In this document: one piece after another, positions 8,554 through 31,279 of the stretch
Position numbering within the stretch: position 1 is the stretch's first letter
Layout of the letters: each line of letters starts with the position of its first letter
DNA from: Janthinobacterium agaricidamnosum NBRC 102515 = DSM 9628
GTDB taxonomy: Bacteria > Pseudomonadota > Gammaproteobacteria > Burkholderiales > Burkholderiaceae_D
Length of the DNA stretch: 64,000 bases
Reading direction: 5' to 3'
Assembly (NCBI RefSeq): GCF_000723165.1
Contig: NZ_HG322949.1
Coordinates: forward strand, 1,621,061 to 1,685,060
Translations under genes and position numbers: made by a program
The notes under the pieces: generated by a model
What the model was told of the DNA's origin: nothing
Database searches by the model: none
What the model saw: the letters and a program-made list of their open reading frames with translations, nothing else

Positions 8554-8634
8554 GGCGCATCAGTAAAAGCTGGCTTTTTGGGGTGAACAGGAACACAGTA
8601 GCAGCGCGTCGATATCGGAAGGCAGGATTTGATC

Positions 8635-11872: not shown

Positions 11873-12030
11873 GAGCCTATCCCAGTAGTGAGCGTCTTGT
11901 TCTGGCCGCGCATCAGGAGCGCGGACCAGGCGTGAGGAGGACGCGTGGCGGGCCACGCGACGACGATCAACGCAGTCCCCGTTCCTGAGGAGCGCCAGAA
12001 CAGGGCGTATTCATCTACTGGGATAGGCTC
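11873..12030 (-). mobile_element. 158-bp MITE-like repeat, copy A (inverted)
   Basis: The ends are GAGCCTATCCCAGTAG and its exact complement. The interior includes a GCGTGGC/GCCACGC hairpin. The copy is in the opposite orientation to copies B and C and differs from them at scattered positions. Flanking triplets are TAA on the left and TTA on the right, both of TNA type though not identical. It has no coding capacity. Confidence 0.85.
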
Positions 12031-12125
12031 TTAGTGCGACTTACGCAAGAAAGTTGTCTAAAGATGCATGGTGCGGGCTGGAGTGAGGTGCCGCGCAAAG
12101 AGGGGGAGGGAGGGGCGGGCAGCAA

Positions 12126-12162
12126 GGTGACGGGAGACGGCCGCAAGCCAGTTCCCGTCACC
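12126..12162 (-). terminator. Hairpin downstream of the chemoreceptor gene
   Basis: A 10-bp stem, GGTGACGGGA at 12126-12135 with TCCCGTCACC at 12153-12162, lies 9 bp beyond the chemoreceptor stop codon. The T-run after it is weak. The remaining sequence back to copy A is G-rich with no feature recognised. Confidence 0.55.
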
Positions 12163-12170
12163 GTTTAAGA

Positions 12171-13874
12171 TTAAAACACTTCCCATTCGCTTTCATTGAC
12201 CTTGGCCGCTTTCGGCGCGGCCTTGGGCGCGGCGATGCTGGCCCGTGGCGCTGGTTTGGCCATGGTCCTGGCAGCCTTGGCCGCCGGCTGGCTTGCGACA
12301 CGCGGCTGCTGCAAGCCGCGCAGCGCGGTATCGTCGAGCTTGAAGACGCTGACCAGTTCGGCCAGGCGGTTCGCCTGCTCTTGCAGCGAACCGGCCGCCG
12401 CCGCCGCTTCCTCGACCAGCGCCGCATTTTGCTGGGTCACCTGGTCCATTTGCGTGATCGCGTGATTCACTTCGCCGATGCCGGTGCTTTGCTCCTGCGT
12501 CGCGGAGCTGATTTCAGTGACGATATCGGTCACGCGCTGCACGCTGGCGACCACTTGCTGCATGGTCTTGCCGGCTTGTTCCACCAGGCGGGTGCCGGAA
12601 TTGACTTTCTCGACCGAATCGCCGATCAGCGTCTTGATTTCCTTGGCCGCCGCGGCGCTGCGTTGCGCCAGGCTGCGCACTTCGGTGGCCACCACCGCGA
12701 AGCCGCGGCCCTGTTCGCCGGCGCGCGCCGCTTCCACCGCCGCATTCAGCGCCAGGATATTGGTCTGGAAGGCGATGCCGTCGATCACGCTGATGATGTC
12801 GACGATGCGGTCCGACGACTGGTGGATCGCGCCCATGGTGTCGATCACTTGCCGCACCACCGCGCCGCCGTCGGCCGCCACGCTCGACGCCGAGCTGGCC
12901 AGCTGGCTGGCCTGGCGCGCATTGTCGGCGGTCTGGTGCACGGTGGATGCCAGTTGTTCGACGGCGGAGGCGGTTTCTTCCAGCGAGCCGGCTTGTTCTT
13001 CGGTGCGCGACGACAAGTCCAGGTTGCCGGCCGCAATTTCCGACGACGCCGTGGCGATCAGGTCGGCGCCGTTGCGCACTTCGCGCACGGTGTTCAGCAA
13101 GCTCTGGTTCATTTCTTTCAGCGCATGTTGCAATTCGCCGATTTCATCCTTGCTGCCGACCTGGATCGACTGGCTCAGGTCGCCGGCCGCGACCGCCTTG
13201 GCGTTGCCGACCGCATCATGCAGCGGACGGGTGATGCTGCGCGCGATCAGCCACGCGGCGGCGATGCCGAACAGGATCGCCGCCAGTCCCAGGCCCAGCA
13301 GCAGCGTGCGGCCGGTGCGGAAATTATTGTCGATGGCGCCGGAGCCCCGATTGATCACGTCTTGCTCGTATTTGACCAGCGCCCGCACTTTTTCGGCGTA
13401 GGCCGCCATCGCCGGCGCCATCTTCGCGTTGTACAGTTCGCTCGCCGCGGCTTCGTCGCCGTCTTCCTTCAATTTGAACACGTCGCTGCGCACCGCGTTG
13501 TAGATCTTGCGCTGGGCCAGCATCGCGTCCAGCACCTTGCGGTCGTCATCGTCGACGGCGCTGTCTTCGAGTTGCTTCTGGATGTCGCTGGCGCGTTTGG
13601 AAAACGACGTGATCTGCTGCTTGAAATACGCTTGCGCCGCCGGTTCGCCGCTCTTGACGATGGCGTCGGCGCGCACGCCGCTGTTTTCAATGATGCCGAT
13701 CCATTCGGTGGCCAGGCGTTCGCGCACCAGGTCGCGGTTGACCATGATGCGGGTGGAACTGCCGATGTCTTGCAGGCGCACGGTGCCGACCACGATCATC
13801 AGCGCCATCAGCGCCAGCACCAGGCCAAATCCCATGCTGAGCCGGGTTCCTATTCGAATGTTTCGCAGATTCAT
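12171..13874 (-). CDS. Methyl-accepting chemotaxis protein
   Basis: This 567-residue chemoreceptor has a first membrane segment at about residues 10-30, a four-helix-bundle type periplasmic sensor, a second membrane segment near 190-210 ([20 protein letters not shown]), a HAMP domain, and a signalling domain with the invariant hairpin [22 protein letters not shown]. The C-terminus ends ESEWEVF after an Ala/Lys/Pro-rich linker, resembling the CheR/CheB-tethering pentapeptide NWETF. It lies far from the che cluster and is a single gene. The ligand is unknown. Confidence 0.92.
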
Positions 13875-14122
13875 TTTTTACTCGTCAGATATCAATGTGG
13901 GAAAAGGAATGCGCGTTGGACCTGCCGCGCAATTTGGCAATATTGTATATCAATGTTTCCACGTGGAAAAATTACCATAAAGTATATTGCTTATGGGAAA
14001 TGATTTAGTTACGATAAAAAGACACGGCGCCCGGCATCGGCGGGCCGTACAGTTCTGCCTGTCCCCAGGGGCCGTACACGCGGCCCCGCCGGCATCCCAC
14101 GCCACCATCCCAGGAGAGTTTC
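13875..14122. promoter_or_regulatory. Divergent intergenic region, chemoreceptor / dehydrogenase operon
   Basis: This AT-rich stretch separates the chemoreceptor from the small dehydrogenase subunit. It contains the palindrome TTTCCACGTGGAAA near 13957-13970. No sigma-28 match was found for the chemoreceptor. AGGAGAG just before 14123 is the ribosome binding site of the dehydrogenase operon. Confidence 0.5.
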
Positions 14123-14845
14123 ATGTCCGAAGATCAGCAATCCCCGTCCCGCCGCAATCTGCTGAAAAGTCTTGTCTTCATCCCGATCGGCGTGGCCGGC
14201 GCCACTGGCGCGGTCAGGAGCCTGCAAGCGTCGAACGGCGCGGTGCAGCCGGAAGGCAAGCCGAATCCGTACACGCCGGCATTTTTTACTGGCGCCGAAT
14301 GGCGCTTCATCCACGCCGCGTGCGACCGCTTGATACCGCACGACGAACACGGCCCCGGCGCGCTGGAACTGGGCGTGCCGGAGTTTCTCGACCGTCACAT
14401 GCAAACCCCGTACGCCAGCGGCGACATCTGGTATATGCAAGGCCCGTACCTGGAGGCGGCGCCGGAATTCGGCTACCAGGGCCGCTTGCCGCTACGCGAT
14501 ATCTTGCGTGTTGGTATCAAGGTCTTCGACCAGCATTGCGCCGCGCAATTCGGCGGCAAGGTGTTTGCCGACTTGAGCAGCGGCCAGCAAGACGGCCTGT
14601 TGAAAGCGGCCGAAGGCGGCAAGCTGAAACTGGAACACCTGTCGGAGAAACTGTTCTTCAGCAATTTGCTGGCCGAAGTACGCAACGGCTATTTCGCCGA
14701 TCCCAAGCACGGCGGCAACAAGGACATGGGTTCCTGGAAAATGATCGGCTACCCCGGCATGCGCGCCGACTACATCGACTGGGTCGGCGTGCGCGATCAG
14801 CCGTACCCGATCGGCCCGGTCGACTTGGCAGGAAAGCGAGGATAA
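14123..14845 (+). CDS. Gluconate 2-dehydrogenase-type small (gamma) subunit, Tat-exported
   Basis: This 240-residue subunit begins with a twin-arginine signal (SRRNLLKSLVFIPIGVAG, residues 9-26). Family members of the subunit 3 type escort and stabilise the flavoprotein subunit, which lacks its own signal. The stretch ACDRLIPHDEHGPGALELGVPEF is typical of the family. The next gene starts 3 bp after the stop codon. Related complexes oxidise gluconate, 2-ketogluconate, sorbitol or fructose in the periplasm. Confidence 0.85.
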   Translation: MSEDQQSPSRRNLLKSLVFIPIGVAGATGAVRSLQASNGAVQPEGKPNPYTPAFFTGAEWRFIHAACDRLIPHDEHGPGALELGVPEFLDRHMQTPYASGDIWYMQGPYLEAAPEFGYQGRLPLRDILRVGIKVFDQHCAAQFGGKVFADLSSGQQDGLLKAAEGGKLKLEHLSEKLFFSNLLAEVRNGYFADPKHGGNKDMGSWKMIGYPGMRADYIDWVGVRDQPYPIGPVDLAGKRG

Positions 14846-14848
14846 GCG

Positions 14849-16624
14849 ATGGCAATCGTGAAGAATAAAGTCGACGCGGTGATCGTCGGCATGGGCTGGA
14901 CCGGGGCCATCATGGCCAAGGAATTGACGGACGCCGGTTTGCAGGTGGTGGTGCTGGAGCGGGGACCGGACCGCGATACCCAGCCGGATTTTTCGTATCC
15001 GCGCGTGGTCGACGAGCTGGAAGGCTCGATCCACCGCAAATACCTGCAAAGCCTGTTGAAGGAAACCGTGACCGTGCGCCACAGCCTCAGCGGCACGGCG
15101 GTGCCGTATCGGCAGATGGGGTCGTTCAAGCCGGGCACCGGCGTCGGCGGCGCCGGCAGCCACTGGTCCGGTTGCCACTTCCGCGCCTTGCCGGAAGATT
15201 TACGCTTGCGCAGCAATACCGAACAGCGCTACGGCAAGAAATTCATTCCGGCTGGCATGACCATCCAGGATTTTCCAGTCAGCTATGAAGAGCTGGAACC
15301 GCATTTCGACCATTTCGAATACGTCTGCGGCACGTCCGGCAAGGCCGGCGTCATCGATGGCAAGGTGGTCGACGGCGGCAACCCGTTCGAAGGTTCGCGC
15401 TCGCGCGAGTTCGCCTTGCCGCCGAACCCGAACTACCTCGGCGCGGAATTGTTTTACAAGGCGGCCCGCGAAAAAGGCTATCACCCATATCCGATCCCGG
15501 CGTCGAACGCGTCGCGGCCATACACCAACCCGTATGGCTGCCAGATGGGGCCGTGCAACTTTTGCGGATTTTGCAGCGATTACGGTTGCCTGAATTACTC
15601 GAAGGCGAGCCCGAATGCCTGCATCTTGCCAGTCTTGCGTCAACGCAAGGCGTTTGAATTGCGCACGCTGGCCCAGGTCTTGAAAGTCAATTTGACTGGC
15701 GACAAGAAAAAAGCCACCGGCGTGACTTACCTCGACGCCCAGGGCCGCGAAACCGAACAGCCGGCCGACCTGGTGCTGCTGTGCGCGTTCTCGCTGTTCA
15801 ATGTGCATTTGATGCTGCTGTCCGGCATCGGCGTACCGTACGATCCGGTCAGCAATACCGGCACCATCGGCCGCAATTATTCGTACCAGAACTTGAACCG
15901 CGTCTCGATGTTCTTCGACGACAGCGTGCAAGCGAACGGTTTCATCGGCATCGGCGGCGGCGGCACCGTGATGGACGATTTGAACGGCAACCAGCTCGAC
16001 AATGCCAAGGCCGGCTTCGTCGGCGGCGGCGTGATCTGGGCCCGCCAGCCGGGCGCCGGACCGGTGCGCGGCATCGCCACCGCGCCGGGCGTGCCGAACT
16101 GGGGCAGCGCGTGGAAGAAAGGCATCAAGGAATCGTTCCGCCATTCCTTCTATTATGAAGTGCAGGGTTCCTGCATGGCGTACCAGGACGCCTGCCTGAG
16201 CCTGGACCCGACCTACCGCGACGCGTTCGGCCGGCCGTTGCTGCGCATGACCTTCGACTGGCACGACAATGAAATCAAGGCTTCCCAATTCCTGGTCGAA
16301 AAAGCCAGCGACATGTGCAAGGTGCTGGGGCCGAAAGCGATGAAGGGCGACGCCAAGAAAGACGGCGAGCATTACAACGTGACGCAATACCAGAGTACCC
16401 ACACTTGCGGCGGCGCCATCATGGGCAGCGACCCGAAAACCTCGGCGCTGAACCGCTACCTGCAATCGTGGGACGTGTCGAACGTGTTTGCGCCGGGCGC
16501 CAACGCCTTTCCGCAAAACAATGGCTACAATCCGACCGGCATGGTCGGCGCGCTGACCTACTGGACCGCCAAGGCCATCCGCGAGAGGTACTTGAAAAAT
16601 CCCGGCCCGCTGGTCCACGCTTGA
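14849..16624 (+). CDS. GMC-family membrane dehydrogenase, FAD-containing large subunit
   Basis: This is a 591-residue GMC oxidoreductase. The FAD-binding glycines are in VIVGMGWTGAIMAKELTDAG at about residues 11-30. A cysteine cluster (CQMGPCNFCGFCSDYGC, about 230-247) is characteristic of gluconate/polyol dehydrogenase large subunits and may hold an iron-sulfur centre. The C-terminal FAPGANAFPQNNGYNPTG carries the substrate-side residues. Electrons should pass to the cytochrome c encoded next. The substrate is not decided by sequence; gluconate or a polyol fits. Confidence 0.88.
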   Translation: MAIVKNKVDAVIVGMGWTGAIMAKELTDAGLQVVVLERGPDRDTQPDFSYPRVVDELEGSIHRKYLQSLLKETVTVRHSLSGTAVPYRQMGSFKPGTGVGGAGSHWSGCHFRALPEDLRLRSNTEQRYGKKFIPAGMTIQDFPVSYEELEPHFDHFEYVCGTSGKAGVIDGKVVDGGNPFEGSRSREFALPPNPNYLGAELFYKAAREKGYHPYPIPASNASRPYTNPYGCQMGPCNFCGFCSDYGCLNYSKASPNACILPVLRQRKAFELRTLAQVLKVNLTGDKKKATGVTYLDAQGRETEQPADLVLLCAFSLFNVHLMLLSGIGVPYDPVSNTGTIGRNYSYQNLNRVSMFFDDSVQANGFIGIGGGGTVMDDLNGNQLDNAKAGFVGGGVIWARQPGAGPVRGIATAPGVPNWGSAWKKGIKESFRHSFYYEVQGSCMAYQDACLSLDPTYRDAFGRPLLRMTFDWHDNEIKASQFLVEKASDMCKVLGPKAMKGDAKKDGEHYNVTQYQSTHTCGGAIMGSDPKTSALNRYLQSWDVSNVFAPGANAFPQNNGYNPTGMVGALTYWTAKAIRERYLKNPGPLVHA

Positions 16625-16634
16625 GGAGACGGGC

Positions 16635-18008
16635 ATGACACGACGTTTTTATAAAACAGGCTTGCTCGTCTGCGCCGGCGCGATCGCACTGGCGTTCGCC
16701 GGTGCGCTGACGTATGCCTTGATCCCGACCGATACGCCGGACATCGGCCCCGGCCAGTTTGCCGGCCTGGGCGACCGCCGCGCACTGATCGACAGCGGAC
16801 GCTACATCGCCACCGCCGCCGATTGCATCGCCTGCCACAGCGCGCCTGGCGGCAAGCCGTTCGCCGGCGGCCTGGCGCTGGCCTCGCCGATCGGCACGAT
16901 CTACAGCTCGAATATCACGCCCGACAAGCGCAGCGGCATTGGCAACTACAGCCAGAGCGATTTCGACCGCGCTGTGCGCCACGGCATCACGCCGGCCGGC
17001 GGTACGCTGTACCCGGCGATGCCGTATCCGTCGTACGCGAAAATGAGCGACCAGGACTTGCGCGCGCTGTATCTCTACTTCATGGAAGGCGTTGAGTCGG
17101 TGCAGTCGGTCAATCGCGCCAACGACATCCGCTGGCCCTTGGCTATCCGCTGGCCGCTGGCGATCTGGCGCAAGACCTTTGCGCCGAGCAGCGCGGTGCA
17201 GCCACTCAATTTGTCGAAATACCAGAGCGAGGCCATCGCCCGCGGCGCCTACCTGGTGCAAAGCCTGGGCCATTGCGGCAGTTGCCACACGCCGCGCGCC
17301 GGCACCTTGCAAGAGCTGGCGCTGGACGACTCCGACCCGCGCTACCTGTCCGGCGGAGCGCTGATCGACGGCTGGCTCGCGGTCAACCTGCGCGGCGACG
17401 ACGCGGCCGGACTGGGGCGCTGGTCGGCCGGCGACATCGCCGACACGCTGCGCGGCGCGCGCAACGCCAAATACGCGGTGCTCGGCAGCCCGATGGCCGA
17501 CGTGGTGCTGCACAGCACGCAACAGCTGGACCAGGCGGACTTGCAGGCGATGGCGGCCTACCTGAAAACCCTGCCGGCCGGCAAAACGAGCGCGTCCAGC
17601 TTCGCCGCCAGCGACGCCACCGCGATCGCGCTCAAGGCCGGTCGCGAAGATGGCCGCGGCGCGCAACTCTACCTCGACAATTGCGCGGCCTGCCACCGCA
17701 GCGACGGCAAGTCCAACGCTGCGATCTTCCCGGCGCTGGCCGGCAATCCGTCGGTACTGGCCGGCAACCCGGCATCGCTGATCCGGGTGGTGCTGCAAGG
17801 CTCCAGCTTGCCATCGACGGCCAGCAAACCGTCGAACCTCGGCATGCCGGGCTTCGCCTGGCGCCTGTCGGATGACGAAGCGGCGCAACTGGTAACGTTT
17901 GTGCGGCAAAGCTGGGGCAACCAGGCGCCGGCGGCGTCCGCCGGGGAGGTGGCGAGTGTCAGAAAAACCTTGAAGGTGCGGCAGGTGGACAAGCGCGACG
18001 TAGATTGA
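16635..18008 (+). CDS. Triheme cytochrome c subunit of the membrane dehydrogenase
   Basis: This 457-residue cytochrome has three CXXCH heme sites: CIACH near residue 65, CGSCH near 215 and CAACH near 350. An N-terminal signal/anchor helix (LLVCAGAIALAFAGALTYAL) is present. In this enzyme class it anchors the complex to the membrane and passes electrons to ubiquinone. GAGGAGAC precedes the ATG. It completes a three-gene operon with the two preceding genes. A small in-frame duplication, RWPLAIRWPLAIW, occurs near residue 170. Confidence 0.88.
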   Translation: MTRRFYKTGLLVCAGAIALAFAGALTYALIPTDTPDIGPGQFAGLGDRRALIDSGRYIATAADCIACHSAPGGKPFAGGLALASPIGTIYSSNITPDKRSGIGNYSQSDFDRAVRHGITPAGGTLYPAMPYPSYAKMSDQDLRALYLYFMEGVESVQSVNRANDIRWPLAIRWPLAIWRKTFAPSSAVQPLNLSKYQSEAIARGAYLVQSLGHCGSCHTPRAGTLQELALDDSDPRYLSGGALIDGWLAVNLRGDDAAGLGRWSAGDIADTLRGARNAKYAVLGSPMADVVLHSTQQLDQADLQAMAAYLKTLPAGKTSASSFAASDATAIALKAGREDGRGAQLYLDNCAACHRSDGKSNAAIFPALAGNPSVLAGNPASLIRVVLQGSSLPSTASKPSNLGMPGFAWRLSDDEAAQLVTFVRQSWGNQAPAASAGEVASVRKTLKVRQVDKRDVD

Positions 18009-18027
18009 GTGCGTATTGAAAACGGAG

Positions 18028-18089
18028 ACCGGGGACAGACCACGATTATGCGGCAATAAATTGCCTCGTAATCGTGGTCTGCCCCCGGT
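18028..18089. terminator. Bidirectional terminator, long stem
   Basis: A 21-bp stem with one mismatch (18028-18048 with 18069-18089) encloses a 20-base loop and ends in a T-run at 18088-18094. It separates the convergent cytochrome and 3-hydroxybutyrate dehydrogenase genes. Confidence 0.85.
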
Positions 18090-18103
18090 TTTTTAACGCG
18101 GAG

Positions 18104-18886
18104 TTACTGCATGAACCACCCGTGACTCACCACGATCGATTGTCCGCTCAGCGCCTTCGACGGGAACGCCGCCAGGAAGATCGCGGTTTGCGCGACGTCC
18201 TGGGTGGTGGTGAATTCGCCGTCGATGGTGTCTTTCAGCATCACTTTCTTGATCACGTCTTCTTCGCTGATCTTCAGTTGCGCGGCCTGCTCAGGGATCT
18301 GTTTGTCGACCAGCGGCGTGCGCACGAAGCCCGGGCAAATCACGTTGGCGCGGATGTTGTCCTTGGCGCCTTCCTTGGCCACCACTTTGGCCAGGCCCAG
18401 CAAGCCGTGTTTCGCGGCGACATAAGCGCTCTTGAATGGCGAACCTTCGTGCGAGTGCACCGAACCCATGTAGATGATGGCGCCGCCTTTGCCGCCCTTG
18501 ATCATTGCGCGCATGCAGGCGCGGGTGGTCAGGAAGGCGCCGTCGAGGTGGATCGCCAGCATTTTTTTCCACTGGTCGAATGCATAGTCGACCACCGGAC
18601 TGATGATCTGGATGCCGGCGTTGCTGATCAATACGTCGATGCCGCCGAATTCGGCCACTGCATCGGCCACGCCCTTGTCGACCTGTTCTTCGCTGGTCAC
18701 GTCCATCGCCACCGCGAACGCCTGGCCGCCGGCCGCCTTGATTTCATTGGCGGTTTTGGTGGCCGCGTCCAGCGCCAGGTCGGCGATGACGACTTTGGCG
18801 CCTTGCTTGGCGTATTCCAGCGCGATTTCCTTGCCGATGCCGCTGGCCGAACCGGTGATGAGGGCGACTTTGTCCTTGAGTTGCAT
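18104..18886 (-). CDS. bdhA: 3-hydroxybutyrate dehydrogenase
   Basis: This 260-residue short-chain dehydrogenase has the cofactor motif [12 protein letters not shown] near residue 11-22, the NAG motif in [10 protein letters not shown], and the catalytic Tyr/Lys in [11 protein letters not shown]. Length and ending match D-3-hydroxybutyrate dehydrogenases, which interconvert 3-hydroxybutyrate and acetoacetate. The ATG at 18886 lies 1 bp after the stop codon of the acetoacetate decarboxylase gene. Its AAGGAAA site is formed by the last codons of that gene, so translation is probably coupled. An in-frame upstream start was rejected. Confidence 0.9.
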
Positions 18887-18887
18887 A

Positions 18888-19643
18888 TTATTTCCTTGAG
18901 TTTGACGGGTTGAGATAATCATACGCGACAGTTCCGAGCGGCAAAGTTAAATCTGCCAGGATATGCGTCGCCGAGATAATTTCCAGCACCGGCAACGCCG
19001 CCACCGGCGCCAGTGCGTGCGGATTCAGGTCGAGCGCGCCGGGTCCGGTCCACGCGCCCTTGACGGTGATATCGGTCAGGCTATATTGCACCAGTTCGCA
19101 GATGCGCGGGGTGCCATCCACATGGGGGATGATCTTGAGTAAAAAAGCCGGCGTTTCCAGCGCTTTCCTGGCGGCCGCCAGATCCATGGCGCGGTGTTTG
19201 TAGCCCATGGTGCCGGTGGCGACGCGGAAGTCGCTGTAATCGAGCGTGCCGCTCAGCGTGTCCTTGTGGATGCGCAATTCCGGGTCGCCCAGTTTTTTCG
19301 GGAAACCCCATAATTCGCGTCCGCCGGCGATCGGCGGATGGTCGTTCAGATACATGCCGAGCACGTAGCCGCCCGCCACGCCGTTGAGCGTGACCGGGAT
19401 CACCTGGCCGGATTCGCAATAGTGGCCGAAGCCGGTCGAATCGGGCATGTTGATGAACTCGAAGCGCACCACCGGTTCGACGAATTCCAGCGGCGCCGGG
19501 ATCAGCGCGCGCAAGGCGTCCGGATCGGTGCGGTAGCTGATGATCAGGTATTCGCGGTCGACGAAGCGGTAGGGGCCGGGCGGAAAAGCGGGACTGTTGA
19601 TGGGCATGGCAAAAGCATTGCGGAGGACGTCGTCTTCGGTCAT
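18888..19643 (-). CDS. adc: Acetoacetate decarboxylase
   Basis: This 251-residue enzyme decarboxylates acetoacetate to acetone and CO2. The Schiff-base lysine region is visible as [16 protein letters not shown], and the conserved start [15 protein letters not shown] is present. It is the first gene of a two-gene unit with 3-hydroxybutyrate dehydrogenase, which supplies its substrate from polyhydroxybutyrate breakdown. GGGAG lies upstream of the ATG. Confidence 0.9.
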
Positions 19644-20118
19644 AGCGTAAAAGCTCCCGGTTAGCGATTCAGTGATGCCGCGATGAAGAGCGTGCTGACG
19701 CTTCGCCGCGTACCGGGGCAGTATAGCTAGAAATCGGTCCCGGCATCCGTCCTGCTGAGCTTTTGCTGCAATGCAAGGCGACGCCAGGCATCCACATGCC
19801 GGGCAAGGCCGGGCTTAATGTTAACTATGGTTACCCATGGCGCTTGCAATGTGGTGATTGAAATTTTATTGCGAATAATTCTCATTCAATATATGATGTC
19901 ATTCGTTCCACAGAGCAACAACGTGGATGCGGCAGCACTATAAATCAGCAGCCCGGCGCATGCGTGCGCGGGCAGGCAGGCACCCTCCTTCCGACACCAG
20001 CATGGTATCCCCAGCCGTTGAGGGAGGTGCATGGAACCCACTTCCCCGACGAAGCGGCTCCGGTGGCGGAATGTCCGTTGCAGGGCGCGCTTCCGACTCT
20101 TGTTTGGTAAGGACTGAA
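19644..20118. promoter_or_regulatory. Intergenic region with a Fur-box-like site and structured leader before the TonB receptor
   Basis: GCGAATAATTCTCATTCAA at 19871-19889 matches 11 of 19 positions of the Fur consensus, suggesting iron repression of the downstream receptor. A roughly 190-base leader follows. It can pair GCACCCTCC near 19980-19988 with GGGAGGTGC at 20022-20030, placing the ribosome binding site of a short leader ORF in a stem. The part nearest adc (19644-19850) shows nothing recognised. Confidence 0.55.
20031..20117 (+). CDS. Possible 28-residue leader peptide upstream of the TonB receptor
   Basis: ATG at 20031 follows TGAGGGAGG and opens a 28-codon frame, MEPTSPTKRLRWRNVRCRAR..., rich in arginine. 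Its TGA at 20115-20117 lies one base before the receptor ATG. The spacing suggests translational coupling, as known for short ORFs ahead of some iron genes. There is no independent proof that it is translated. Confidence 0.4.
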   Translation: MEPTSPTKRLRWRNVRCRARFRLLFGKD

Positions 20119-22380: not shown

Positions 22381-22385
22381 ATTTT

Positions 22386-23744: not shown

Positions 23745-24416
23745 TGCCTTGCCTTTTCCGATGTGCTGCACAGGCCCGCGTTTGCTACCGCTGCTGCCAA
23801 TTGATGCGGCCTGGCAGGTGGTATTAATGCGTGTTGGCAAATGCTGGCCTGATCAAAAGTGACTCTTCGTCCAAATCATACCGCTTTGTTAATTTTATTT
23901 GTTAAAAATCCTACGTGACTTTTTTTGAAATAGGCAGATGATGTAGAGTTTTTAGCAACAAATATCCCAAACTGACGGGCTGTACATCACTGTTGGTTAA
24001 TTTTCATGGCTGCGATGTGGTCGTCATCACGCGCTTGCCTGCTAAGAGCCTATCCCAGTAGATGAATACGCCCTCTTCTGGCGCCCCTCAGTAGCGGGGA
24101 CTGCGTTGCTCGTCGTCGCGTGGCTCGCCACGCTTGCTCCTCACGCCTGGTCCGCGCTGCTGATGCGCTGCCAGCAGAAGACGCTCACTACTGGGATAGG
24201 CTCTAAGGCCATGCTGTTTTTACAGCCTGGGATCGCAAATTGGCACGGCCTGCTCCCGGATTGGCCCGAAACGAGGCCGATACGACCTTTTTATTTTGCC
24301 GCTCTCTGGCAACATCACCGGTTGCGCTTGCATGCATGGCCGCGCCGGGTTGCGCCTGGGTTCAGGCGGACGGCATGCGGCTGCATGCTACGAGAATGAC
24401 CACGAGGAGAAAAAGT
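23745..24416. other. Intergenic region, AT-rich stretch plus repeat copy B
   Basis: Between the diguanylate cyclase and the oxidoreductase operon there is an AT-rich stretch (about 23875-23990) without a recognised gene or RNA, then repeat copy B, then about 200 bp of leader. The open frame running in from 24240 upstream of the GTG at 24417 has no good ribosome binding site and is not taken as coding. Confidence 0.5.
24046..24203 (+). mobile_element. 158-bp MITE-like repeat, copy B
   Basis: This full-length copy has 16-bp perfect terminal inverted repeats (GAGCCTATCCCAGTAG). It is flanked by TAA at 24043-24045 and TAA at 24204-24206, a 3-bp target duplication of TNA type. It reads identical to copy C over its length. 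Confidence 0.9.
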
Positions 24417-24896
24417 GTGAAGATCAATGGAGAAATAAAGACGCTTGACGTCGATGGCGACACGCCGGTGTTATGGGCGATACGCGACGTGCTCGGCATG
24501 ACCGGCACTAAATTTGGTTGCGGCAAGGGGTTGTGCGGCGCGTGCACCGTGCATATCGACGGCGTCGCCACCCGCTCGTGCATCACCAGCGTGGAATCGG
24601 TGGCCAGGTCCGAAGTCCGCACCATCGAATCGCTGGCCGATACGCGGATCGGCCGGGCCTTGCAGGCGGCCTGGCTGGAACTCGACGTGGTGCAATGCGG
24701 TTATTGCCAGTCGGGCCAGTTGATGTCGGCTGCCGCCTTGCTGGCGAAAAACAAGGCCCCCAGCGACGCCGATATCGACGATGCGATGAGCGGCAACATT
24801 TGCCGCTGCGGCACCTATGTGCGCATCCGCGCCGGCATCAAGACCGCGGCCCGGATGCTGTCCACCGGAAAACTGGAGGTGGGCCATGCTGTTTGA
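24417..24896 (+). CDS. (2Fe-2S) subunit of a molybdenum oxidoreductase (isoquinoline 1-oxidoreductase alpha type)
   Basis: This is a 159-residue xanthine-oxidase-family iron-sulfur protein. The plant-type cluster cysteines are in [12 protein letters not shown], and the second cluster is in QCGYCQSGQ and GNICRCGTY. The GTG at 24417 has GAGGAGA six bases before it and starts directly at KINGEIKTLDVDG, matching the family; upstream ATGs would add an atypical extension. It passes electrons from the molybdenum site of the next gene product. The two genes overlap by 11 bp. Confidence 0.85.
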   Translation: MKINGEIKTLDVDGDTPVLWAIRDVLGMTGTKFGCGKGLCGACTVHIDGVATRSCITSVESVARSEVRTIESLADTRIGRALQAAWLELDVVQCGYCQSGQLMSAAALLAKNKAPSDADIDDAMSGNICRCGTYVRIRAGIKTAARMLSTGKLEVGHAV

Positions 24897-27090
24897 CCGC
24901 CTGAACATGCATCAGCAGGATGATGCAGTTCCCAATGTTTCGCGCCGTAATTTCCTGGGCGCCAGCCTGGCCGCCGGCGGCGGTTTGCTGATCAGCGTGG
25001 GGCTGGGTGCCGTGCCCGGGGCGGTATTCGGGGCTGGCAAGGCCGATGGCGCAGCGGCATTCGAGCCGAACGCCTTCGTGCACATCGGCACCGACGGCAA
25101 GGTCACGCTGACCATGCCGTACATCGAAATGGGGCAGGGTACCTACACGGCGATTCCGATGCTCATTTCCGAAGAGCTGGAAATCGGCTTGCAGCATGTA
25201 CGCCTGGAACATGCGCCGCCCAACGACAAGCTGTACGCCAACGGCATCCTCGGCTTCCAGGTGACCGGCGGTTCGACCACCATCCGCGGCGCGTTCGGAC
25301 CGATGCGCCGCGCCGGCGCGGTCGCGCGCCTGATGCTGGTCGCGGCCGCCGCGCGACGCTGGCAGGTCGACGCATCGTCTTGCCGCGCCGAACGCGGCGA
25401 AGTGATCCACCAGGCCAGCGGACGCCGCCTGGCCTATGGCGCGCTGGCGACCGACGCGGCGGGTCTGGCCATGCCGCAGGCCGACCAGGTCGCGCTGAAA
25501 CCCGGCGCCGACTTCAAGCTGATCGGCACGCCGGCAAAACGGCTCGATTCGCCGGCCAAGGTCAATGGCACGGCCTTGTACGGCATCGACGCCAGGGTGG
25601 CCGGCATGAAAATCGCCACGCTGGCCCAGTCGCCGGTGTTCGGCGGCAAGCTGCGCAGCGTCGACGACAGCAAGGCCAGGGCGGTGCGCGGCGTGCGCCA
25701 GATCGTCAAGCTCGATGATTGCGTGGCGGTGGTCGCCGACCACATGGGCGCCGCCAAGAAGGGCCTGGAGGCATTGCTCATCGAATGGGACGATGGCCCG
25801 AACGGCAAACTGAACACCGCCGATATCGTGGCCGACATGCGGCGCGCTTCGGCGCAGCCGGGCGCGGTGGTGCGCAGCGAAGGCGACAATGCCAAGGCGA
25901 TGCAGCAAGCGGCAACACGTCTGGACGCGGTGTACGAATTGCCGTTCCTGATCCACGGCGCGATGGAGCCGCTGAACTGTACCGTGCACGTGCGCAAGGA
26001 TCGTTGCGAAGTGTGGGTAGGCACCCAGGTGATCACCCGCGCGCAGGCCGCCGCGGCGGCCGTGACCGGCTTGCCGGTCGAAAAAGTGACGGTGCATAAC
26101 CATTACCTTGGCGGCGGTTTCGGACGCCGGCTGGAAGTCGACAGCATCACCCGCGCGGTGCAAATCGCGCAGCACGTCGATAGCCCGGTCAAGATCGTCT
26201 GGAGCCGCGAAGAAGACATCCAGCACGATATGTACCGGCCGTATTTCTATGACCGGGTCAGCGCCGGACTCGATGAGCAAGGCTTGCCGGTCGCGTGGTC
26301 GCATCGCCTGACCGGTTCGTCGATCCTGAAGCGCTGGTATCCGCCGCTGTACAACAAGGGTTTTGATCCGGAAACCATCGATGGCGCCGCGCATCCGCCG
26401 TATGCCTTGCCGAATATCCTGGTTGATTACGTCAACCACGAACCGGCAGTGCCGACCGCGTTCTGGCGCGGCGTCGGGCCGGCGCACAACGTGTTTGTGG
26501 TTGAAAGTTTTATCGACGAACTGGCCGCCGCCGCCGGGCAGGATCCGGTGGCTTACCGCAGCGCTTTGCTGAAAGAAAACCCGCGCGCGCTGGCGGTGCT
26601 GCAACTGGCGGCCGGCAAGGCTGGCTGGGGCAAGCCGATGCCCAAGGGAGCAGGGCGCGGCGTGTCGCTGCAATTCGCGTTTGGCACTTATCTGGCGCTG
26701 GTGGCCGAGGTGGCGGTCGCACCGGACGGCACGGTCAGCGTCAAGCGGGTGGTGGCGGCGGTCGATGCCGGCGTGATCGTCAATCCGGACACGGTGCAGG
26801 CGCAAATGCACAGTGCGATCATCTTCGGCATCTCGGCTGCGCTGTATGGCCAGGCGACGCTCAAGGATGGCCGCATCGAGCAATCGAACTTCCATGACAT
26901 GCGGGTGGTGCGCATGTCGGAAACGCCGCTGCTGGAGATCCATATCGTGTCCAGCAAGGAAGCGCCGGGCGGCATGGGCGAACCGGGCACGGCAGCTTTG
27001 CCGCCGGCGCTGGCCAATGCAATTTTTGCGGCGACCGGCAAGCGCTTGAGGAAGTTGCCGATCGATGCGGACTTGCTGAAGTCCGCTTGA
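24886..27090 (+). CDS. Molybdopterin-binding subunit of an isoquinoline 1-oxidoreductase-type enzyme, Tat-exported
   Basis: This subunit of about 734 residues starts at ATG 24886, preceded by GGAGGTGGG, inside the end of the iron-sulfur gene. A twin-arginine signal (SRRNFLGASLAAGGG) lies near residues 19-33. The molybdopterin-binding motifs GGGFGRRLEVDSI and GGMGEPGTAALPPALANAIFAATG are present. Such periplasmic enzymes hydroxylate N-heterocycles or oxidise aldehydes. No cytochrome gene follows, unlike the paralogous operon near 58.6-61.8 kb. A strong hairpin downstream ends the operon. Confidence 0.87.
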   Translation: MLFDRLNMHQQDDAVPNVSRRNFLGASLAAGGGLLISVGLGAVPGAVFGAGKADGAAAFEPNAFVHIGTDGKVTLTMPYIEMGQGTYTAIPMLISEELEIGLQHVRLEHAPPNDKLYANGILGFQVTGGSTTIRGAFGPMRRAGAVARLMLVAAAARRWQVDASSCRAERGEVIHQASGRRLAYGALATDAAGLAMPQADQVALKPGADFKLIGTPAKRLDSPAKVNGTALYGIDARVAGMKIATLAQSPVFGGKLRSVDDSKARAVRGVRQIVKLDDCVAVVADHMGAAKKGLEALLIEWDDGPNGKLNTADIVADMRRASAQPGAVVRSEGDNAKAMQQAATRLDAVYELPFLIHGAMEPLNCTVHVRKDRCEVWVGTQVITRAQAAAAAVTGLPVEKVTVHNHYLGGGFGRRLEVDSITRAVQIAQHVDSPVKIVWSREEDIQHDMYRPYFYDRVSAGLDEQGLPVAWSHRLTGSSILKRWYPPLYNKGFDPETIDGAAHPPYALPNILVDYVNHEPAVPTAFWRGVGPAHNVFVVESFIDELAAAAGQDPVAYRSALLKENPRALAVLQLAAGKAGWGKPMPKGAGRGVSLQFAFGTYLALVAEVAVAPDGTVSVKRVVAAVDAGVIVNPDTVQAQMHSAIIFGISAALYGQATLKDGRIEQSNFHDMRVVRMSETPLLEIHIVSSKEAPGGMGEPGTAALPPALANAIFAATGKRLRKLPIDADLLKSA

Positions 27091-27128
27091 GTGAAGTGAA
27101 TAGATCAGCTGGATAGATCAGCTGAATA

Positions 27129-27190
27129 AGCCAGGCTGGCGGCGCAGCACCACCAAGCTTCAGGGTGGTGTCGCCGCCAGCCGGCTGGCT
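27129..27190. terminator. Bidirectional terminator between the oxidoreductase and SMR exporter genes
   Basis: Arms at 27129-27154 and 27164-27190 pair over about 24 bp with few mismatches around a loop of 9 bases. The flanking genes are convergent. Just upstream is a short direct repeat, ATAGATCAGCTG, near 27100-27124. Confidence 0.8.
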
Positions 27191-27510
27191 CAGTTTCCCG
27201 AGACCAGTTTGAGTCCGGTCACGCCGGCCAGTATCAGCACGATGCAGAAGATCCGCAGCGGCGCGGCGGAGTCGCCCAGCAGTACGATGCCGATGATCGC
27301 CGTGCCGGCCGCGCCGATGCCGGTCCAGACCGCGTAGCCGGTTCCGACTGGCAATGTGCGCAGCGAGAATGACAGCAGAATCACACTCGACAGGCCGGTG
27401 GCGACCGTCAGCAGCGACGGTAGCAGGCGCGTAAAACCTTCGGACGACTTCATGCCGAAGGCAAAGGCAATTTCAAGAATGCCGGCGATACCAAGCAGCA
27501 GCCAAGCCAT
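27190..27510 (-). CDS. sugE: SMR-family small exporter, SugE/Gdx-like
   Basis: This 106-residue protein has four membrane segments. The membrane-embedded glutamate is in GILEIAFAFGMK at residue 13, and the signature LPVGTGYAVWTGIGAAGTAI matches the SugE/Gdx group. That group exports guanidinium and some quaternary ammonium compounds as a dual-topology dimer. It lies 13 bp downstream of the AhpD-like gene, so the two are probably cotranscribed. No guanidine riboswitch was recognised upstream. Confidence 0.88.
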   Translation of the reverse strand: MAWLLLGIAGILEIAFAFGMKSSEGFTRLLPSLLTVATGLSSVILLSFSLRTLPVGTGYAVWTGIGAAGTAIIGIVLLGDSAAPLRIFCIVLILAGVTGLKLVSGN

Positions 27511-27523
27511 GGCGGCAGCGTGT

Positions 27524-27985
27524 TTACGCGTGGGCCGCGGCAGCGGCGGCAGGCGGGACGCGGAACGATACGCCCAGGCGGTTAAACGCGTTCATCAAGC
27601 CGATTGCATAGGTCAGGTCGGCAACTTCCTTGTCGCTGAATTCGGTAGCCACGGCGTCATAGGCGGTATCGGGCACGCCGGTGTCGGCGACGCGCGTGAC
27701 CACTTCGGCCCAGGCCAGCGCGCTGCGTTCACGGGCGCTGAAGACGGCGCCGGCGTCGTGCCACACTGGCACCAGCACCAGCTTGTCGACCGCCAGCCCG
27801 TTATTGAGCAGGTCGCGGGAATGCATGTCGATGCAAAAGGCGCAGCCATTGATTTGCGACACCCGCAGATACACCAGGTCGACCAGTTGTTTTGGCAGGC
27901 CGCTCTTATGGATGCTGGCATGCACCGCGCCGAACGCCTTGTAGATGTCCGGAGAAACCTTGGTGTAGTCGATACGATTGCTCAT
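27524..27985 (-). CDS. Carboxymuconolactone decarboxylase-family (AhpD-like) protein
   Basis: This 153-residue protein carries the redox motif CAFCIDMHSRDL near residue 52, with Cys-x-x-Cys and the nearby histidine typical of AhpD-like alkylhydroperoxidases. AAGGAAC before ATG 27985 supports this start over an in-frame one upstream. The protein probably detoxifies peroxides in the cytoplasm. It sits between a MocR-type regulator and the SMR exporter on the same strand. The substrate is not known. Confidence 0.85.
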   Translation of the reverse strand: MSNRIDYTKVSPDIYKAFGAVHASIHKSGLPKQLVDLVYLRVSQINGCAFCIDMHSRDLLNNGLAVDKLVLVPVWHDAGAVFSARERSALAWAEVVTRVADTGVPDTAYDAVATEFSDKEVADLTYAIGLMNAFNRLGVSFRVPPAAAAAAHA

Positions 27986-28111
27986 GATAAGTTCCTTGTT
28001 GATGTGTTGTTGAAGGACTCCATGGTGCTGCATCTTGGCCTATTCGAGAAGAGCCATAATATGAGTTGTGGACTAGGGCATGATGGTCTTGACGGCGGCC
28101 GCCGCCCCATC

Positions 28112-29530
28112 TTACATCAGCGTCAGTATTCGTCGTCCCAGGGTTTCTGCGGTGTGGCGCGAGTCGATATTGGTAAAGTTGAGCAGCAGCGCGGACGCCT
28201 CGTCGTTCTTCCTGGACCAATCCGTCAGCGCCTCGCCGGCCAAACCCTGCTGGCGCATCCGCGTGACCAGTTGACGATCCGGTTGCCGGTCTTGCAAACG
28301 CAGGATCAGGTGCATGCCGCCAACTTGTCCATCGATGCGCACATGCTTGCCCAGCACGCTTTCCAGGCCCGCCGTCGCCGCATCGCGCCGCTCGGCATAC
28401 AGCCTGCGCATGCGCTGGATATGGCGCGCGAAGTGGCCTTCCGTGATGAACGCCGTCACGATCGCTTGCGTCAACTGCGGACTGCCTCCGGCAAAGGCTT
28501 GATTGATTTGCTCAAAGCGCTCGACCTGGGATGCCGGCACCAGCAGGTAAGCCAGCCGGATGCCGGGAAACAGCACCTTGCTGAACGTGCCGGCATACAG
28601 CACGCGGCCATCGCGGTCCAGGCTCTTTAATGCGGGCAGCGGCCGGCTGACATAGCGGTACTCGCCGTCGTAGTCGTCCTCGATCACCCAGGCGTCGTTG
28701 CGCGCCGCCCAATCCAGCAGCTCCAGCCGGCGCGGCAGCGACAAGGTCACGCACAGCGGACTCTGGTGGGCCGGCGTGACCACCGCCGCGCGCGCCCGTG
28801 GCGCCGCCCTGATGCCGTCTGCCACGCACAAACCGTCGCCATCGACCGGCACCGGGACGGTGCCGATCTGCAGGCGTTCCAGCAAATCCCGGGTCGGCGG
28901 ATAGCCCGGGTCTTCGGTCCACACGCGATCGCCAGCTTTCAGTAATGCATGCGCGATCAGCTCCATGCTATGGCGGTAGCCGGACGTGACGAAGATCTGC
29001 GAGGCCGAGCAATGAATCCCGCGCGACATGTGCAGATAGGCGGCGATCGCGGTCCGCAGTTCCGGCAAGCCGGAGACCGGCGGGTGGGCCATGTCCGCCG
29101 GCTGCGTTGCGCGCACGCAGCGCGCTCCGAGGCGCGCCCATATCTTGCGCGGAAACTCATCCAGCGCGGGCAAGCCCATCTGGAATGGCAGCACCGAATC
29201 CGGGCGAAAATTGTTGCCCGTGTCGCCATGCGGACGCGGCAAGGCGCTGGCGAGCGGCCCTCGCGGCTTCAGCCCCGGTGTCACGATGGTGCCGGCCTGG
29301 CCCCGCGCCAGGAGATAGCCCTCGGCGCCGAGCAGCGCATAGGCGGCTTCGATGGTGCCCCGGGCCAAGCCCAACTCCTTGGTCAGCGCCCGCGCCGACG
29401 GTATCCGGTCGCCCGGCTTTAATACCCCGCTGGCAATCGCGGCCCGGAACCGGTCGTAGATCTGGCGGTAAAAAGGTTCGGCCGCGGCTGGATCCAACGG
29501 CGAAATAGGGTTGCTCCGCGCCTTGTTCAT
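28112..29530 (-). CDS. MocR-type regulator (GntR helix-turn-helix fused to aminotransferase domain)
   Basis: This 472-residue fusion has a GntR winged helix at residues 20-90 (GDRIPSARALTKELGLARGTIEAAYALL) and a fold-type I aminotransferase domain. The PLP lysine lies in YAGTFSKVLFPGIRLAYL. MocR proteins sense PLP or amino-acid-like effectors and bind direct repeats. It is divergent from the azoreductase gene and upstream of the AhpD-like/SMR pair, so it may regulate either. The ATG lacks a strong ribosome binding site. Confidence 0.87.
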   Translation of the reverse strand: MNKARSNPISPLDPAAAEPFYRQIYDRFRAAIASGVLKPGDRIPSARALTKELGLARGTIEAAYALLGAEGYLLARGQAGTIVTPGLKPRGPLASALPRPHGDTGNNFRPDSVLPFQMGLPALDEFPRKIWARLGARCVRATQPADMAHPPVSGLPELRTAIAAYLHMSRGIHCSASQIFVTSGYRHSMELIAHALLKAGDRVWTEDPGYPPTRDLLERLQIGTVPVPVDGDGLCVADGIRAAPRARAAVVTPAHQSPLCVTLSLPRRLELLDWAARNDAWVIEDDYDGEYRYVSRPLPALKSLDRDGRVLYAGTFSKVLFPGIRLAYLLVPASQVERFEQINQAFAGGSPQLTQAIVTAFITEGHFARHIQRMRRLYAERRDAATAGLESVLGKHVRIDGQVGGMHLILRLQDRQPDRQLVTRMRQQGLAGEALTDWSRKNDEASALLLNFTNIDSRHTAETLGRRILTLM

Positions 29531-29745
29531 GGCATAGTCAATTTTGTGGTTGATCGATCAATCGATTGTACCATTCGGCTACCTGCCGGATGCTGGTCCG
29601 ATGATGCGCATGGATCAGTTCTAATGCTAATTCATGGATCATTTGAATAGTCCATCTGGTTTGTAGAATGACGGCTGTCTTGCGCTCAATGCCTGAGCTG
29701 GGCGTCAATCGCCTACACTACAATCACACCTGGAATGGATCAAGC
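29531..29745. promoter_or_regulatory. Divergent control region, MocR regulator / azoreductase
   Basis: Two overlapping palindromes lie at 29550-29561 (TTGATCGATCAA) and 29559-29568 (CAATCGATTG), close to the regulator start. Direct repeats of ATGGATCA occur at 29610-29617 and 29634-29641, 24 bp apart. Direct repeats of this kind are usual for MocR operators; assignment to this regulator is inference. Confidence 0.5.
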
Positions 29746-30366
29746 ATGAACATCCTGCATATCAGTTGCAGCCCTCGCGGGCAAGCCGCCGAGAGTTACC
29801 GGCTCTCGCAAAAAATCATCGGTTTTCTGCTGCAAAAGCAGCCATCGGCGACCGTCGTCAACCGGATGCTGGGCGAGGACGGCATCGCCCATGTCGACGC
29901 CAATTACGCGCTGGTCCAGCAATCGGCCGGCGCCGATATCGCGCCGGATGGCGCCATCGCCCGCTCCGAAGAGTTGATCCAGGAGCTGGAAAGCGCGGAT
30001 GTGGTGGTGATCGGCACGCCGATGCACAACCTGTCGGTGCCGTCGGCGCTGAAGGCATGGATCGACCATGTGGTGCGGGCGCGCCGGACCTTCCACCTGA
30101 CGCCGCAAGGAAAAGCGGGCGCGCTGCGCGACCGGCCGGTGCTGGTCGGCGTGTCATCGGGTGGCATCTATTCCGGCGAGCGCGCGCGCCAGCCGGATTT
30201 CCTGACGCCGTACCTGAAAATCGTGCTGGCCACCATCGGCCTGCATGACCTGACCTTCTTTTCGGTGCAGGGAACCGGTTTCGGGCCGGATGCGGTGGCC
30301 GAGGCCAGGAGCAGGACGGAGCAGGCATTGCAAGACTACTTTGCGGCGTTTTATATTCCTGCTTAG
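29746..30366 (+). CDS. azoR: FMN-dependent NADH-azoreductase
   Basis: This 206-residue flavodoxin-fold quinone/azo reductase has FMN phosphate binding in SCSPRGQAAESYRLS near residue 8 and the loop GTPMHNLSVPSALKAWIDHVVRARRTF near 90-116. Starting at ATG 29746 gives the standard AzoR length and N-terminus (MNILHISCSPRG). The site before it is weak, so a longer form is possible. It reduces quinones and azo compounds with NADH in the cytoplasm. It is divergent from a MocR regulator and followed by repeat copy C. Confidence 0.87.
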   Translation: MNILHISCSPRGQAAESYRLSQKIIGFLLQKQPSATVVNRMLGEDGIAHVDANYALVQQSAGADIAPDGAIARSEELIQELESADVVVIGTPMHNLSVPSALKAWIDHVVRARRTFHLTPQGKAGALRDRPVLVGVSSGGIYSGERARQPDFLTPYLKIVLATIGLHDLTFFSVQGTGFGPDAVAEARSRTEQALQDYFAAFYIPA

Positions 30367-30387
30367 TTTGAGTCGCCGCCGTGCTTA

Positions 30388-30545
30388 GAGCCTATCCCAG
30401 TAGATGAATACGCCCTCTTCTGGCGCCCCTCAGTAGCGGGGACTGCGTTGCTCGTCGTCGCGTGGCTCGCCACGCTTGCTCCTCACGCCTGGTCCGCGCT
30501 GCTGATGCGCTGCCAGCAGAAGACGCTCACTACTGGGATAGGCTC
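30388..30545 (+). mobile_element. 158-bp MITE-like repeat, copy C
   Basis: This full copy reads identical to copy B and is flanked by TTA at 30385-30387 and TTA at 30546-30548 (TNA-type duplication). Its outer end plus flank, GGCTCTTA (30541-30548), is mirrored by TAAGAGCC at 30560-30567, inside the last codons of the next gene. Confidence 0.9.
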
Positions 30546-30556
30546 TTATTACTTTG

Positions 30557-30958
30557 CTATAAGAGCCATGTCGTATTAGGACGAGTTCCGGCCACGCCAA
30601 CCAAGCCCATGTGCGCTAACAATGGCAATAAATAATTGATGATCATGATATTGCTACCGTTGGCATGTCGTGTGCTAACACACAAGGCACTGGCTGCATT
30701 GATATCCTTGTTCGAGCCAATTTCACATGGGCGGATAGCGGTATGTAAATTTTGCGCTAAATAAAAGAATGCCTCGGCGAAGGCGGCTCGATTGATGCGA
30801 ATTAAGGATCCACCTTGTGTGGTGATTGAAACGGCATCATTTTCGACCGATGTAATATTGAAGGAAGATCCTTTGGCATCATCGGGCGTGCTTAACGTGA
30901 TACCGGCTTGTAAACTACCCCAGTGCTGCGCTAAAGTCGTATGGATTAATTGTTGCAA
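30557..30958 (-). CDS. Uncharacterised 133-residue protein, AT-rich gene between two repeat copies
   Basis: The family is not recognised. The frame starts with TTG at 30958, preceded at a good distance by AGGAGAT (30962-30968). The protein is soluble for most of its length, with a hydrophobic C-terminal stretch, IMIINYLLPLLAHMGLVGVAG, that could be a helix of a winged domain or a membrane-associated helix. Base composition is clearly lower in GC than the neighbours. The 3' end lies 11 bp from repeat copy C, and truncated copy D lies upstream, which suggests acquired DNA. Confidence 0.55.
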   Translation of the reverse strand: MQQLIHTTLAQHWGSLQAGITLSTPDDAKGSSFNITSVENDAVSITTQGGSLIRINRAAFAEAFFYLAQNLHTAIRPCEIGSNKDINAASALCVSTRHANGSNIMIINYLLPLLAHMGLVGVAGTRPNTTWLL

Positions 30959-31279
30959 GTAAATCTCCTGATGTCACTGAACGTTTCAACGGCGCTAAGT
31001 AGGCTAAGTAGGTCGTGGAAAATGATTGTGAAGTTATGAAGAACAGAAGCGGATGCGCCGCAAGGCGCCCGTTGCGACGCAGTGCGAGCACTGCTGGCAG
31101 CGGGGACTGCGTTGATCGTCGTCGCGTGGCCCGCCACGCTTGCTCCTCACGCCTGGTCCGCGCTGCTGATGCGCTGCCAGCAGACGACGCTCACTACTGG
31201 GATAGGCTCTTAGCCTTTCGGCACGCGCCTGTCTTATTATGCACGTTATCGCGCACGTTATCCGTAACCTGCCCAACCA
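30959..31279. other. Intergenic region with truncated repeat copy D
   Basis: This region contains the 5' end signals of the AT-rich gene, a GC-rich stretch at 31046-31094, repeat copy D, and about 70 bp before the aminotransferase stop codon. No further gene was recognised. Confidence 0.5.
31095..31209 (+). mobile_element. 158-bp MITE-like repeat, copy D (left end missing)
   Basis: From the central CGGGGACTGCGTTG onward the sequence matches copies B and C with three substitutions, and the right end CTACTGGGATAGGCTC is intact. The left terminal repeat is replaced by unrelated GC-rich sequence. That sequence nevertheless supplies CTGCTGGCAGCG at 31091-31102, exactly complementary to CGCTGCCAGCAG at 31172-31183. 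Confidence 0.8.

Follow-up and report, generated by a model that had tools for sequence, protein, structure and literature searches.

A 158-bp family of miniature inverted-repeat transposable elements of probable IS5-family origin in Janthinobacterium agaricidamnosum

Repeats in the window

The window, i.e. the whole stretch of 64,000 nucleotides that was analyzed, comes from Janthinobacterium agaricidamnosum NBRC 102515 = DSM 9628 (RefSeq assembly GCF_000723165.1, contig NZ_HG322949.1, positions 1,621,061 to 1,685,060). It contains three full copies (A to C) and one truncated copy (D) of a 158-bp repeat (Table 1). A description made from the letters alone, referred to here as the sequence-only reading, had taken this repeat for a family resembling miniature inverted-repeat transposable elements (MITEs), with TNA target duplications, compensatory changes and a mobilizing transposase outside the window. 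On re-inspection we could confirm the coordinates, the perfect 16-bp inverted ends (GAGCCTATCCCAGTAG) of copies A, B and C, the truncated copy, the identity of B and C and the duplications that flank these two. One copy elsewhere in the genome has the same sequence as B and C; the three identical copies suggest a fairly recent movement of the MITE.

Table 1. Copies of the 158-bp repeat and associated features in the window.
Feature	Position	Strand	Remark
MITE copy A	11873..12030	-	158 bp, reverse relative to B and C; flanks TAA 11870-11872 and TTA 12031-12033, non-matching
MITE copy B	24046..24203	+	full 158 bp; 16-bp ends 24046-24061 and 24188-24203
Left target duplication TAA, copy B	24043..24045	.	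flank sequence
Right target duplication TAA, copy B	24204..24206	.	flank sequence
Inner hairpin GCGTGGC/GCCACGC, copy B	24118..24133	+	alignment columns 73-88
MITE copy C	30388..30545	+	158 bp, sequence identical to copy B
Left target duplication TTA, copy C	30385..30387	.	flank sequence
Right target duplication TTA, copy C	30546..30548	.	flank sequence
Truncated MITE copy D	31095..31209	+	right 115 bp only; right end intact, then TTA

The family in the host chromosome

A search of the 5.95-Mb single-contig genome for the 16-bp end (up to 2 mismatches) gave 106 forward and 109 reverse matches. The reversed-pattern control gave 1 forward and 0 reverse matches, so that chance is excluded as the source of these 215 matches. 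Roughly 100 places in the chromosome are occupied by the 158-bp non-coding element. The following counts refer to the 82 distinct two-ended elements in the genome stretches examined, out of about 100 places listed with an end match; the same stretches also contain 13 unpaired ends, including truncated or older copies and two ends of insertion sequence (IS) relics. The length is exactly 158 bp in 67 of the 82 elements and ranges from 44 to 239 bp in the others. The two 16-bp ends are exactly complementary in 63 elements.

Matching target duplications flank 67 of the 82 elements, a set that differs from the 67 elements of 158 bp. They read TAA/TAA in 34 cases and TTA/TTA in 33. The TNA of the sequence-only reading is in practice TWA, the middle base of these 67 duplications being A or T. 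The base before the duplication is C in 53 and T in 13 of the 67 cases, and the base after it is G in 39; the full target CTWAG occurs exactly in 30.

The element has a GC content of 64%. At least 66 of 67 copies have stops in five of the six reading frames and hence no transposase gene; the sixth frame is open over about 52 codons in 63 of 67 copies. The family thus shows the properties by which prokaryotic MITEs are recognized, namely a length below 500 bp, terminal inverted repeats, target duplications, insertion polymorphism and the absence of a transposase gene. Three observations support its identity as a MITE: the target duplications and, as described below, an empty site and the ends shared with an IS of the IS5 family.

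Three variations of the element were seen in addition. At L189 two copies (1001-1158 and 1162-1319) stand in tandem, split only by a shared 3-bp target, which corresponds to an insertion into the duplication of the other copy. Minimal elements of 45 bp (L165:1001-1045, L187:1001-1045 and L283) consist of the ends plus 13 bp and have matching TAA or TTA duplications; they occur in two species with at least 2 different internal junctions. Diverged variants of 159-173 bp (L004:220-378, L014:1325-1497 and L282) with ends such as GAACCTATCCCAGTAG and a similar central core are present in the same genomes.

Empty sites and occurrence in other genomes

The comparison of empty and filled sites was informative at one place, L258. 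This site is occupied by the MITE in four genomes (G024, G004, G018 and G023, among the places listed), and 19 of the 20 orthologous alleles fetched from other genomes are cleanly empty with a single 3-bp target (TTA in 11, TCA in 8). At the remaining allele (L323, from G032) the position is taken by about 153 bp of other sequence. The 22 relatives' loci that were fetched for window copies A and B lack such an end at up to 4 mismatches, and their flanks are too diverged to reveal the junction.

The distribution of the family was analyzed in 61 genomes, i.e. the own genome, 36 congeners and 24 genomes of other genera, with at most 13 candidates per genome being scored. A match to the MITE at E 0.001 was obtained in the own genome and in 26 of the 36 congeners, some of these matches being weak or partial; the 24 genomes of other genera gave none. 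Of the 36 congeners 18, and again none of the 24 others, contain the 16-bp end exactly. Paired elements were found at 66 of 67 relatives' loci; 51 of them are 158 bp long and 44 have matching duplications (TAA/TAA 25, TTA/TTA 19). A plasmid search gave no match to the element, and neither did a search of viral contigs with an exact 24-mer of it. A text search of the literature for GAGCCTATCCCA returned, among the matches listed, titles on human, mouse or flavivirus topics, and literature searches for a MITE family in Janthinobacterium gave no report of this family among the matches listed.

Insertion sequences with the same ends

The genome contains a transposase relic (L046) that terminates in the exact 16-bp end of the MITE. 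The first open reading frame (ORF) of this relic has the domain PF13340 DUF4096 (IS5 family), and the nearest of the candidate proteins scored shares 93% identity with it. The relic aligns to about nucleotides 66-670 of related ISs and has, like three translated IS relatives, two overlapping ORFs. A separate place in the genome (L220) contains the last 200 nucleotides and the other end. L046 and L220 correspond to the 5' and the 3' part of the parental IS; both are truncated and they are distant from each other. Perhaps they are one element that was split by a rearrangement. The expectation that the mobilizing transposase lies outside the window thus agrees with the IS relics found elsewhere in the genome.

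Other candidates for the parental IS were rejected. Among 25 transposase matches examined for a close IS in congeners, the sole good one was the relic of the own genome, and the loci L047-L071 contain no pair of MITE-type ends 0.6-2.5 kb apart. Transposases of the PF01609 family gave 9 matches in the own genome, with an end (up to 4 mismatches) only at L046 and L044; the latter is actually a full MITE copy beside another transposase gene. In G061 a stretch of 35 residues is 65% identical to the relic's transposase.

A search for a full IS with the same ends, which the sequence-only reading had proposed, produced only relics in the own genome, but it was successful in other bacteria. From these, 80 IS relatives were fetched and 55 of them were tested for ends. 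Both ends are present in 47 of the 55, with lengths of 874-1067 bp, mostly 886-959 bp and for the greater part close to 905-930 bp. An identical 3-bp duplication flanks 32 of these 47 (TTA 21, TAA 11). The 3-bp TNA duplication of ISfinder's IS1031 group would also be compatible with the observed 3-bp TWA. In one relative (L097) both ends are identical to the 16 bp of the MITE; in another (L080) the left end shares 21 exact bp with the left end of the MITE, and the longest similarity extends over 34 bp at 85%, at one end. The interior of the MITE was compared with three ISs and nothing matched at E 1e-3. Judged from these alignments, the MITE is of type II, which the accessible text of a review (PMC10969869) defines by an IS similarity that is confined to the ends. 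Ends and duplication are the same as those of an IS5-family IS, which argues for an origin of the MITE from this family.

We consider it very likely that the whole is best explained by a type II MITE of IS5-family origin, which was moved in trans by an IS5-family transposase. Several observations weigh against this explanation. No full-length parental IS was found in the own genome and no close one in 39 congeners, where the next best match by score is only 39% identical. The first ORF of L046 scores 103.4 against the NCBIfam IS5 model, just under the cut-off of 110. A matching duplication is absent in 15 of the 82 own-genome elements and in 15 of the 47 two-ended IS relatives, in some of the latter because the flank is missing or unreadable. 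Beyond 34 bp or less at one end there is no alignment between the MITE and the three ISs, and we infer mobilization by this transposase from the shared ends only.

Folding and paired changes

As RNA, copies A and B fold end to end on either strand with -89 to -105 kcal/mol. In 55 of 56 unique own copies the more stable fold is that of the reverse strand; we take no evidence for a transcript from this. RNAalifold returned a poor consensus for the gapped set. Its ungapped consensus, for which there were no controls, comprised 33 pairs for 99 copies, of which 8 showed a second Watson-Crick pair, and 48 pairs for the 56 own copies, of which 1 did. Paired changes were therefore counted on the fold of copy A. 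The choice of copy A favors the structure with respect to the percentage of paired positions and less so with respect to double changes. Copies that are not 158 bp long and one copy of 74% identity were left out of the alignment.

In the set of 99 unique copies of 158 bp, a second Watson-Crick pair with changes on both sides occurs at 12 of 62 pairs (62 cells). Shuffling gave a mean of 5.9 pairs and 22.7 cells, with 0 of 300 shuffles reaching the observed 12, and slid-structure controls gave 6-8 pairs and 7-19 cells. When the count was repeated on 32 of the 118 copies that are 158 bp long, it resulted in 10 pairs compared with 5.4 after shuffling (1/500 shuffles reach this number; slid structures 1-5); further pair types showed no excess in this count (18 vs 18.1 shuffled). 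Relatedness among the copies inflates all these counts. When only the own genome is considered, a second Watson-Crick state is found at no more than 3 of the 62 pairs, each of which is often unpaired. The consensus of the relatives differs from the own consensus by 15 substitutions and still folds at -86.0; when the same 15 substitutions were placed randomly the value was -63.8 (standard deviation 5.7), and 0 of 200 placements were as stable. Similarly, random relocation of the substitutions makes the fold less stable for 50 of 56 own copies (54 for the reverse strand), although the copies share variants and are not independent.

The selection for a folded form that the sequence-only reading had suggested is hence supported by the family-wide excess of paired changes and by the preserved folding energy, but few pairs vary within the own genome. 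Its example was partly mistaken. The quoted AGAAGA of copies B and C and AGAACA of copy A lie 3 columns apart in the alignment; the homologous columns 30/132 do read C-G in B and C and G-C in A. Over 67 full copies this pair reads C-G 29, C-C 22, G-C 11, G-G 2, A-C 2 and G-A 1, so that it is unpaired in 27 of them. The inner hairpin is kept as described, and its columns 75/86 change on both sides in the relatives (G-C 35, A-T 8 in 43 unique copies). The fold is conserved in the family, probably through the transposing lineage; the variants and pair states seen in one copy only, which are given below, speak against a constraint on resident copies.

Arm-to-arm copying, i.e. template switching in the hairpin, could produce paired changes with no need for selection. 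In its favor, ends that deviate from the consensus and are still exactly complementary occur in 1 of 82 own and 2 of 66 relatives' elements. The double changes also lack a consistent bias toward wobble intermediates: rare G.T and A.C states number 21 vs 32 overall, 12 vs 7 in own copies and 9 vs 25 in relatives. However, 25 of the 26 pair states that were seen in one own copy only are not Watson-Crick, meaning that single-arm changes stay uncorrected. The variants of the left and right arms, moreover, occur in reassorted combinations in different copies, a pattern that recombination between copies accounts for better than correction inside a single one. We therefore regard arm copying as a possible but rather improbable source of the paired changes.

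It is less probable still that the end-to-end DNA hairpin itself is needed for spreading, with only arm-paired copies being good substrates for transposition. A cruciform or a single strand could, for example, join both ends, and folding would then be selected in the transposing lineage only. If true, such a dependence on DNA folding would depart from what is usual among IS5-family DDE transposases.

Position relative to genes

Genes were predicted with a simple codon-usage caller, which is crude. None of the 82 elements has a gene that continues on both sides. Position classes could be assigned to 76 elements, the other 6 being without a predicted gene on one side. In 23 of the 76, the distance between the element and the end of a stop codon is at most 1 bp. 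Another 24 are intergenic and closer to a 3' end, the neighboring genes being convergent for 15 of these; 14 are intergenic and closer to a 5' end, and in 15 an ORF runs into the element (8 at a 3' end). In these last 15 cases the gene end may be altered, and fused protein tails are possible given the frame that is open in 63 of 67 copies.

As a null set for target sites we used 267 kb of the window and its flanks. For the strict motif CTWAG, 25 sites could be classified and another 25 could not; of the former, 7 fall in stop codons and 5 within coding regions. For the looser motif [CT]TWA[AG], 246 sites were classified and 148 were unclassifiable; here 31 of the classified sites fall in stop codons and 121 within coding regions. 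If the strict motif is what matters, much of the location can be put down to target choice; with the looser motif its share is smaller. The absence of elements from coding sequence exceeds both nulls (binomial p 6e-8 strict, 5e-23 looser), which suggests that harmful insertions were lost.

The whole-length hairpin and the many copies at gene 3' ends or between convergent genes would also be expected if the element served the host as a 3'-end RNA structure, such as an mRNA stabilizer, a processing site or a terminator, and were kept for that; the 23 of 76 elements at stop codons, compared with 31 of 246 sites of the looser motif, are above prediction. We consider such a role very unlikely. With the strict motif, target choice can account for much of this location. 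Single-copy variants are nearly as frequent in stem columns as in the loop (26 in 124 vs 10 in 34, Fisher p 0.36), and G.U states are not preferred. A scan of the window gave 0 Rfam families at gathering score, and the region around copy B (23950-24350) yielded neither a terminator-like nor a promoter-like site. The suggestion of selection as RNA is thus not borne out, since G.T states are not commoner than A.C and both searches were negative; an RNA function of the element is not supported.

An origin of the repeats by inheritance of duplications at fixed places, without insertion, can practically be dismissed. Some sites are common to several species (L258, L259, L265), but the clean empty alleles at the L258 site refute this explanation; the target duplications in own genome and relatives and the end-free loci of the relatives at the sites of copies A and B also speak against it.

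Comparison with known elements

The following comparisons refer to the accessible text of the cited papers. The closest published case there is MITEAba12 of Acinetobacter with its parent ISAba12 (PMC6382973), which has the same architecture and logic. Both MITEs are short, occur in several copies per genome, have 16-bp ends that match an IS, resemble this IS only at the ends and are flanked by duplications of the length made by the parental IS. MITEAba12 is 113 bp long with 9-bp duplications; the element described here differs by its 158 bp, 3-bp TWA duplications, GC content and other ends.

The sequence-only reading had placed the duplication near the IS5/IS427-group elements. The two overlapping ORFs of the relic and the three relatives are like those of the IS427 group of the IS5 family (PMC3281130), and the IS relatives are similarly small, the group members having 832-865 bp. 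The entries of this group have, however, mostly a 2-bp duplication (in one case 4 bp), while it is 3 bp here.

Correia elements, with more than 120 copies, and other short palindromic MITEs of bacteria are like the present element in their length of about 100-200 bp, their stem-loop and their mostly intergenic position (PMC10969869, PMC2229807). Most of these are A+T-rich and often end in TA; the element from Janthinobacterium, by contrast, has a high GC content, a parent of the IS5 type and TWA as its target. The 158-bp repeat is a new MITE family of an architecture that is already known.

Proposed origin and significance

According to the mechanism that we propose, a DUF4096 transposase of the IS5 family, encoded by an IS with the same GAGCCTATCCCAGTAG ends, would act in trans on the transposase-less MITE. 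It would bind both ends, move the 158-bp DNA into targets similar to (C/T)TWA(G/A) and duplicate the 3-bp TWA on insertion. In this GC-rich genome such targets are enriched at stop codons and between genes. This target bias, together with the loss of harmful insertions, would account for the location of most copies at or close to the 3' ends of genes and for the lack of elements with a gene continuing on both sides. Among the copies, it is mainly the transposing lineage that seems to maintain the hairpin. Because only truncated relics of the parental IS were found, the family can probably no longer move in the present host, unless another transposase recognizes its ends.

The result is a large MITE family with clear boundaries that belongs to one genus and for which a likely parent IS, an empty site and a target motif are available. 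A CTWAG-like motif, which in a GC-rich genome is often located at stop codons, may permit about 100 copies with little damage to genes. Since folding is kept across lineages while stem mutations are tolerated in single resident copies, the purpose of MITE hairpins becomes testable.

Apart from the repeats, the window contains two adjacent ORFs (7636-8553 and 8629-9594) that are alike by eye and resemble AraC-type regulators; they appear to be a tandem duplication.

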